A DNA stretch of 64,000 nucleotides from Candidatus Pelagibacter communis (lineage in GTDB: Bacteria > Pseudomonadota > Alphaproteobacteria > Pelagibacterales > Pelagibacteraceae), in the NCBI RefSeq assembly GCF_001179845.1, contig NZ_CVSB01000049.1, positions 1 through 64,000 on the forward strand. Reading direction: 5' to 3'. This document shows positions 44,982-46,577 of this stretch, in pieces. Position 1 is the first letter of the stretch. Every line of letters starts with the position of its first letter. The position numbers and the translations under genes were made by a program. The notes under the pieces are model-generated. The model saw only the letters and a list, made by a program, of their open reading frames with translations, searched no databases and was not told where the DNA came from.

Positions 44982-45545
44982 GTGAGCAGTCAGAATTTAA
45001 TAATATATAAGTTTACAAGATTATATCAAATCCTTGATGAAATTGGAGCAGATTTAAATTTTAATATTGAATTTGAAGATAGAGATGATGCTTTAAATGA
45101 AAGAGTTAAAAATTTTAATAATTATTTAATTATATCAAATAAAAAATACTCAGATATTCCCAATCAATTTGTTTTAGATAATTTACCAATTAATGTATTT
45201 AAATTAATTGAAAAGATAAATATTGAATTTTTAAAATTGCAATTTAACAGCCAATCTGAGGTGAAAATAAATAATTATATTATTGATCTAAATTCTAGAG
45301 AAATGTTAACAAAAAATACAAAGCTTAAGTTGACTGAAAAAGAAATAAATACAATTACTTATTTATCTAAATCAGACAAACCGGTTAGTGTTGTTGAGTT
45401 ACAAGAAAAAGTTTGGAGTTATCAATCTGATATAGAAACTCACACAGTTGAAACTCACATTTATCGACTAAGAAAAAAAATTTTAAATACATTTAATGAT
45501 GATAATTTCATAACTAGTGAGAAAAATGGCTATCAAATCAAATAA
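44982..45545 (+). CDS. orphan OmpR-type winged-helix regulator
   Basis: The C-terminal 95 residues are a Trans_reg_C winged helix: INNYIIDLNSREMLTKN, KLTEKEINTITYLSKS, VSVVELQEKVWSYQ, then recognition helix THTVETHIYRLRKKI and wing FITSEKNGYQIK. The N-terminal about 85 residues have receiver-like length but none of the usual acidic pocket, phosphoacceptor Asp or Lys, so control by phosphorylation is unlikely. No kinase gene is beside it. I start at GTG 44982, just outside the divergent transpeptidase gene; ATGs at 44934 and 44943 would add residues overlapping that gene. Ends 10 bp before the ArfA-like gene. Confidence 0.82.
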   Translation: MSSQNLIIYKFTRLYQILDEIGADLNFNIEFEDRDDALNERVKNFNNYLIISNKKYSDIPNQFVLDNLPINVFKLIEKINIEFLKLQFNSQSEVKINNYIIDLNSREMLTKNTKLKLTEKEINTITYLSKSDKPVSVVELQEKVWSYQSDIETHTVETHIYRLRKKILNTFNDDNFITSEKNGYQIK

Positions 45546-45555
45546 GAAAAATCCT

Positions 45556-45651
45556 ATGGCTAAGGACTTATTCACTAAAAAATATAAACCAAAAATAGTT
45601 AAACCAAAAAAAGGTAAGGGAAGCTTTAAAAGAAACAAAAATAAAATTTAA
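45556..45651 (+). CDS. arfA: ArfA-like alternative ribosome-rescue factor
   Basis: A 31-residue frame (MAKDLFTKKYKPKIVKPKKG and KGSFKRNKNKI). The KKGKGSFKRNK segment matches the ribosome-binding signature of ArfA (KKGKGSYxRK), and DLFTKKYKPKIVKP lines up with the DPLFRxRVxKxK stretch before it. ArfA recruits release factor to ribosomes stalled on mRNAs lacking a stop codon, as a backup to tmRNA. E. coli ArfA is longer, but the active truncated form ends soon after this motif, so a 31-residue version may be complete. It lies 10 bp after the regulator gene on the same strand and its stop overlaps the opposing kinase gene by 4 bp. No strong Shine-Dalgarno. Confidence 0.75.
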   Translation: MAKDLFTKKYKPKIVKPKKGKGSFKRNKNKI

Positions 45652-46577
45652 AGTCTTGCCCCAATTTGCTGTATTACTTTGGATGACATCTCAGTACCTT
45701 TTTCAAGGCAATCATGTGTAGGCAATTTGTTAATATATCCGTGTAAAAAACCAGCAGCAAATAAATCACCTGCGCCTGTAAGATCAATAACTTTTAGATT
45801 TTTTTGTATACCTCTTTCAATAACTTCACCATCATCAATTGCAACGGCACCTTTTTCTCCTCTAGTTACAATCATTAATTTATTAAGTTGTTTTGAAAAG
45901 TGTATAACTTCATCAAAATTTTTTGCATTAATTAATGATGTAATTTCTTGTTCGTTAGCAAAAATTATATCAAGTTTATTTTTTACTAAGTTTAAAAAAT
46001 GGGGTTTGTGTCTATCTACGCAAAATAGATCAGAGAGTGACATAGCAATTTTGTTTGCATTATTTATAGCTTTATCGAATGCTCTCTTAGGATCTCCCTC
46101 ATCCCATAAGTAACCTTCTAAAAAAATTATTTCACTTTTTTTAATTGCATCAGAACTTATGTCATTTTCATTAATTTTTCCTGCAGTTCCAAGAAATGTG
46201 CACATTGTTCTTTCTGAGTCTGGAGTTACCAAAATTAAACACGTTCCGGTCGGTAATTCCTCTTTCTTTTTCGAATAAAAATACTCGACATTTTCTTTTT
46301 TTAAACCTTCTTCGTATTTACTACCAAATTCATCATCAGATACTTTGCCTATAAATCCAACCTTGTCACCAAGTTGAGATAATCCAACTATAGAGTTAGC
46401 TACAGATCCTCCAGAGACAGTTTTTTCAATTTTAAGATTTGTTATTAAGTTTTTAAACTCTTTTTCATCAAAAAATAATTTCATTGTGCTCTTTGTAAGA
46501 TTATTTTGATCAATAAAATTGTCATTTACTTTGCAAATAACATCAACTATTGCATTTCCTATTCCTAAAATTTTCAT
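45648..46577 (-). CDS. PfkB-family kinase, adenosine kinase-like
   Basis: 309-residue ribokinase-fold sugar/nucleoside kinase. VSGGSVANSIVGLSQLGDKV is the substrate-side motif and DLTGAGDLFAAGFLHGY the PfkB signature 2, with catalytic Asp271. The start LGIGNAIVDVICKVNDNFI resembles the adenosine kinase-like branch common in alphaproteobacteria. The substrate (adenosine, inosine or a sugar) cannot be fixed from sequence. One base pair separates it from nth upstream on the minus strand. Confidence 0.9.
   Translation of the reverse strand: MKILGIGNAIVDVICKVNDNFIDQNNLTKSTMKLFFDEKEFKNLITNLKIEKTVSGGSVANSIVGLSQLGDKVGFIGKVSDDEFGSKYEEGLKKENVEYFYSKKKEELPTGTCLILVTPDSERTMCTFLGTAGKINENDISSDAIKKSEIIFLEGYLWDEGDPKRAFDKAINNANKIAMSLSDLFCVDRHKPHFLNLVKNKLDIIFANEQEITSLINAKNFDEVIHFSKQLNKLMIVTRGEKGAVAIDDGEVIERGIQKNLKVIDLTGAGDLFAAGFLHGYINKLPTHDCLEKGTEMSSKVIQQIGARL

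Follow-up and report, generated by a model that had tools for sequence, protein, structure and literature searches.

A 64,000-nucleotide stretch of the Candidatus Pelagibacter communis genome (hereafter the window) carries a 41-residue gene that, on comparative sequence evidence, is a real, natively terminated homologue of ArfA, from a class reported to lack arfA. A nucleotide-profile survey covering over 15,000 genomes recorded arfA in none of 2,376 Alphaproteobacteria (PMC11633108); if the SAR11 factor works, release-factor-dependent rescue extends beyond its known distribution. SAR11 rank among the ocean's most abundant bacteria, and a working factor would make the order's backup for trans-translation a protein of about 40 residues, free of E. 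coli-style gating. The natural SAR11 sequence also indicates how little of ArfA may suffice, and the phage copies described below suggest that rescue matters during infection.

Correspondence with ArfA and a proposed mechanism

The window protein was searched against the Pfam ArfA profile (PF03889) and matched with E 1.1e-5 and 25.2 bits, 0.3 bits below the cut-off of 25.5, the match being confined to the C-terminal half (profile positions 23-41 of 44). Orthologues from genus g5, a sister genus, scored above the cut-off at 30.6-31.4 bits, and an NCBIfam search with the window protein gave no match. A profile built from SAR11 members only was then compared with all PDB chains and returned all six distinct ArfA sequences there (E 5e-6 to 1.5e-5), followed by a next match at E 1.5; the single 41-aa sequence gave no match in the PDB, where the profile did. 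The sequence-only reading had proposed an ArfA-like identity from the core KKGKGSFKRNK. The profile searches bear this out, although the Pfam match falls marginally short by its bit score.

In hmmsearch, the SAR11 profile aligned with E. coli ArfA over about 33 residues without a gap, from K12/N14 to K44. The module N9-V25 falls, likewise ungapped, on E. coli N14-E30, where ArfA touches RF2 and the decoding centre (PMC5378476). Across 105 unique cores, K28, G30, G32, S33 and R36 are invariant, as are N9 and L15 of the N-terminal module; the position of E. coli F25 is always Tyr or Phe, and that of L20 is an invariant Leu. Other positions have changed: L19 corresponds to D/E/N, L24 to K/R, A18 to K, and P23 to K in most SAR11 proteins and to P in a few. 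In ArfA, L19, L24 and F25 make contact with Trp319 and with the Val198/Phe217 pocket of RF2 (PMC5378476), and two of these three residues of the hydrophobic patch (L19 and L24) have non-hydrophobic counterparts in SAR11. E. coli ArfA begins with 5-10 residues that have no counterpart. The SAR11 protein ends at E. coli residue 46 in the window and at 43-46 in most relatives, about where, or a little before, the shortest active truncation of the E. coli protein ends (~N47, cited in PMC5378476). Judged by homology, the 41-residue protein is a minimal ArfA homologue.

We infer that the gene very probably encodes a minimal, conventionally terminated, RF2-dependent rescue factor of the ArfA type. 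Its targets would be ribosomes that have stalled on reaching the 3' end of a broken mRNA; the protein would bind these, its lysine-rich KKGKGSFKR tail entering the empty mRNA channel. At the decoding centre, the N-terminal NPxAxxL...YK module would hold a release factor open, most likely RF2, and the GGQ loop of the opened factor would cut the peptidyl-tRNA. For ArfA, the N-terminal region is reported to stay disordered until RF2 has opened on the ribosome. The gene differs from E. coli arfA in its normal stop just after the channel-binding part, which suggests that intact mRNA would yield active protein, with translation coupled to that of the regulator gene upstream, and not only upon failure of trans-translation. 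The predicted properties of the protein are ribosome binding, use of RF2, constitutive expression and rescue.

The cellular setting is compatible with this proposal. The RF2 of the window's genome (G000:C63) contains SPF, Phe217 (RRHTSF) and, in the switch loop, Trp319 (GWG), with Ile in place of Val198; taken with the partly changed patch of the SAR11 protein, this makes dependence on RF2 likely rather than proven. The window's genome also has an alpha-type tmRNA, and SmpB was found in 18/18 Pelagibacterales genomes tested. The same 18 genomes hold at most two RF-1-domain genes each, both release-factor sized (G062, at 87% completeness, showed one), and none of ArfB size. With SmpB present and ArfB not found, the ArfA-like protein is the only alternative rescue factor recognised in those genomes. 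A test for mutual exclusion of ArfA-like genes and ArfB across Alphaproteobacteria gave no support for it, an ArfB-sized RF-1 gene occurring in 6/20 genomes with an ArfA-like hit and 6/16 without.

An unlikely alternative is that the homologue has changed its partner and activates RF1 besides or in place of RF2, like Francisella ArfT. Only part of the patch that accounts for RF2 dependence survives (L19 has become D and L24 K), and both the size of 34-42 aa and the lack of hairpin control recall ArfT. However, the aromatic at the F25 position, missing in ArfT, is invariantly Tyr/Phe in the SAR11 cores, the RF2 of the window's genome keeps the pocket and Trp319, and KGKGS is intact where ArfT has KKGGSTNKK. 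With its KKGKGSFKR tail, and with Tyr/Phe in every core, the window protein does not show the features of the ArfT type. Very unlikely is a reading as a small, basic protein that binds ribosomes and shares the ArfA-like tail but has another role, such as ribosome hibernation or inhibition, and no release activity. The best Pfam match does cover only the C-terminal half, and short lysine-rich proteins are compositionally simple. Yet the SAR11 profile spans E. coli ArfA N14-K44 without gaps, the N-terminal module is conserved at least as widely as the tail, and it is this module that the sister SAR11 family and the DUF7230-like relatives retain.

Start, selection and locus of the gene

Table 1. 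Features at the arfA-like locus, in coordinates of the window.
Feature	Position	Strand	Basis or remark
Winged-helix regulator	44982..45545	+	Trans_reg_C Pfam 3.1e-13; GTG start inferred; last 20 nt overlap arfA
arfA-like gene	45526..45651	+	41 aa, MAIKSNKKNPMAKDLFTKKYKPKIVKPKKGKGSFKRNKNKI, stop TAA; Pfam ArfA E 1.1e-5; conserved start and length; dN/dS 0.08
N-terminal conserved module N9-V25	45550..45600	+	N-P-[IM]-A-x-x-L-x4-[YF]-K-x-[KR]-[IV]-[VI]; hmmsearch alignment
Inner ATG (start codon of the sequence-only reading)	45556..45558	+	Judged non-start; ATG there in 25/110 orthologues
KKGKGSFKR, mRNA-channel-binding core of ArfA	45607..45633	+	Aligned with E. coli K33-R41
pfkB-family sugar/nucleoside kinase gene	45648..46577	-	ORF list; convergent; stop codon overlaps arfA stop

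The gene had been proposed as a 31-residue frame at 45556-45651. The residues quoted for it are indeed there, reading MAKDLFTKKYKPKIVKPKKGKGSFKRNKNKI and then a TAA stop, and they stand above chance by the Pfam ArfA match and by a frame that is open in every orthologous locus. Its length was wrong. The open reading frame list offers three in-frame starts, which are, from 5' to 3', GTG 45517, ATG 45526 and the inner ATG 45556. Conservation begins 5' of M45556, from KKNP; ATG 45526, which gives 41 aa, is kept among near relatives; and most of the 110 orthologues have Ile, Leu, Val or Phe in place of the inner Met, so the product is 41 aa rather than 31. A 31-aa form would also truncate the conserved part, as the invariance of N9 and L15 indicates. 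From these comparisons, ATG 45526 is the supported start and 41 aa the predicted product. The inferred start is ATG in 102/110 Pelagibacteraceae loci, and orthologues are 34-42 aa long with a mode of 39. The description as one of the smallest rescue factors is fair in that the protein is very short, but it is not unique, since Francisella ArfT, with about 40 residues, equals it in size (PMC6299226).

The sequence-only reading had made its claim depend on purifying selection and open frames in relatives. The frame is open in 110/110 orthologous loci of Pelagibacteraceae, with none closed, and dN/dS over 28 core codons is ~0.08, a ratio that is only approximate given a mean dS of 1.2. Diversity at codon positions 1, 2 and 3 is 0.13, 0.10 and 0.40, respectively. 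Close named relatives, with as much as 97% identity over the residues matched, belong to uncultured Pelagibacteraceae and place the window in SAR11. As judged from this conservation, the 41-residue frame is a real gene under strong selection across SAR11. A chance open frame overlapping the 3' end of the regulator and facing pfkB has next to no likelihood and is already refuted by the conservation data: the frame is short, AT-rich and lysine-rich, and one reverse frame is likewise open in 94% of loci, but all 110 loci are open with a dN/dS of 0.08, variation sits at third positions, start and gene order are conserved, and the same protein occurs at other loci in the sister genus (L034) and in phages.

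Gene order is well kept within the genus. The regulator, in which Pfam recognised no receiver domain, lies upstream of the arfA-like gene in 108/110 loci, and pfkB is convergent in 101/110, with the two stops usually only a few bases apart. The siting between regulator and PfkB kinase genes that had been singled out earlier therefore holds in nearly all relatives of the genus. Regulator stop and arfA start overlap by 20 nt in 62/110 loci and by 4 nt in 9. The overlap in the window suggests that regulator and arfA may form one operon with translational coupling. Outside the genus the gene is sited elsewhere, being away from the regulator and pfkB in genus g5 (L034) and, likewise, in the relatives from the sister SAR11 family.

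Orthologues were found in 20/21 near-complete relatives, and a wider profile matched 179/198 genomes of Pelagibacterales (137/149 of those at least 90% complete). In the closed genomes G377 and G287 the regulator directly adjoins pfkB, a clean absence which shows that these genomes do not need the gene. Among loci L064, L065 and L068 (G377, G287 and G033), arfA has been lost cleanly in the two closed genomes and other sequence is found in the third. G287 carries a KGKGS-less relative at another locus (L106).

In E. coli, a stem-loop in arfA gives rise to a non-stop mRNA, and ArfA appears only when trans-translation fails (PMC8012679). Non-stop expression is a regulatory feature of that gene and not part of the protein's mechanism. 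The SAR11 gene has a normal stop five codons after the channel-binding tail, and no terminator-like site was found at it. Its mRNA is no more stably folded than shuffled sequence (z = +1.0), and z was below -2 in 0/55 orthologues. With a native TAA stop and no hairpin, the non-stop control of E. coli is absent, in agreement with the earlier proposal that truncation of the E. coli type would not be needed.

Relatives in Alphaproteobacteria and phages

Beyond SAR11, PF03889 matched 12/385 alphaproteobacterial genomes, eight above the cut-off, and a profile including the SAR11 members matched 29/385, some weakly. Several relatives have no KGKGS but share the NPxAxxL...[YF][RK]x[RK]V module; tails are of the NKKKIIEKKRIKLKF type in the sister SAR11 family and KK--xYxRK in other Alphaproteobacteria. 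In the PDB, a profile of the KGKGS-less alphaproteobacterial relatives had E. coli ArfA as its sole match (E 1.1e-5 to 2.5e-5, values that are somewhat optimistic because the sequences were gathered with an ArfA-containing profile). As independent support, Pfam DUF7230 (PF23876) picks up three of the same KGKGS-less loci. The sister-family protein matches DUF7230 weakly (0.0077). No published function for DUF7230 was found in the literature. A phylum-wide DUF7230 search matched 1/249 genomes, so this model in its present form is either rare or of low sensitivity.

Similarity in sequence supports counting the KGKGS-less, DUF7230-type proteins as putative ArfA-family factors. We give even credence to a wider reading in which the SAR11 gene would belong, as a single branch, to a broad ArfA superfamily of Alphaproteobacteria and their phages that has gone largely unrecognised. 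Its N-terminal module, which activates the release factor, would be constant and its mRNA-channel tail exchangeable, be it KKGKGSY, the KK--YxRK of DUF7230 or the NKKKIIEKKRIKLKF type of the sister family. If this is true, release-factor-dependent rescue would be common in a class reported to be without any, and DUF7230 would gain a function.

Many marine phages carry related genes. Gene product gp30 of pelagiphage HTVC027P was named ArfA earlier and is strongly expressed during infection (PMC12753301), and a Citromicrobium phage ArfA was previously reported (PMC8953757). A scan of IMG/VR gave at least 148 contigs with a relative, some of which could be host sequence. Some phage copies are free-standing, some are extended and some are ArfA cores fused to another phage domain. 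The 41-aa protein found nothing by tblastn in phage records, where the low-complexity filter possibly masks lysine-rich sequence; the 58-aa phage protein matched 84 records. Of the matched records, 68 belong to Acinetobacter phages.

Two related roseophages, CRP-212 (L277) and CRP-9 (L282), have unannotated ORFs at matching places, between a coat-protein-adjacent gene and a very large gene beside the portal gene. The CRP-212 ORF scores as ArfA (3.3e-8) and the CRP-9 ORF as DUF7230 (4.9e-7), with 86% DNA identity between them over 36 nt; this points to DUF7230 as a member of the ArfA superfamily.

Several further phage loci were recorded. The IMG/VR fusions, of about 120-145 aa, consist of an ArfA core followed by phage domain phrog_17747 (...STVNKAGNYTKPTMRKRLFERIKAGGKGGAPGQWSARKAQMLAKRYKKAGGGY) and lie at L241:1980-2408, L221:1875-2291, L222-L224, L231, L232, L245 and L246, as well as L250, L256, L263, L265, L271 and L274; two of the fusion proteins were tested against Pfam ArfA and gave E 8e-8 and 2e-6. 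Acinetobacter phage Acj61, which is T4-like, encodes a 41-aa DUF7230 protein, Acj61p003 (L280:286-411, E 2.3e-12). Unannotated ArfA-like ORFs occupy annotation gaps in Caulobacter phage Cr30 (L278:262-402) and Pseudomonas phage pf16 (L281:262-420).

Comparison with known systems

E. coli ArfA (YhdL, PF03889) shares with the SAR11 protein the KKGKGS[YF]xR motif within the ungapped alignment of about 33 residues and the corresponding positions N14, I16 (I/M/L in SAR11), L20, F25 (Y/F), R28 (K/R) and K31, and the window's genome has an RF2 with the ArfA-contacting residues. The SAR11 protein differs in its shorter N-terminus, its lack of the hydrophobic C-terminal tail and the replacement of L19, L24 and A18. 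Its gene is without hairpin or RNase III-type non-stop control and has no ArfB alongside. ArfB itself (YaeJ), with an RF-1 domain and GGQ, is a different protein, the SAR11 product being 41 aa long and without GGQ.

DUF7230 has the N-terminal module NPVAKxLRTxxYRxKVV and the same size class but lacks the GKG of KKGKGSY (KK---xYxRK), and the window protein gave no DUF7230 match at E up to 10. Francisella ArfT resembles the SAR11 protein in its length of about 40 aa, the absence of hairpin control, the ease with which annotation misses it and release-factor-dependent rescue, which for the SAR11 protein is predicted; it differs in having KKGGSTNKK in place of KGKGS, no aromatic at the F25 position and the use of RF1 or RF2 (PMC6299226). 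HTVC027P gp30 has the same core as the SAR11 protein, NPVAKEVRTPKYKSQIIKPKKGRGSFKR, within 58 aa that include an extra N-terminal MKKEKWDGRSRPATDKYKEEWNRIF, and the phage gene adjoins the small terminase gene.
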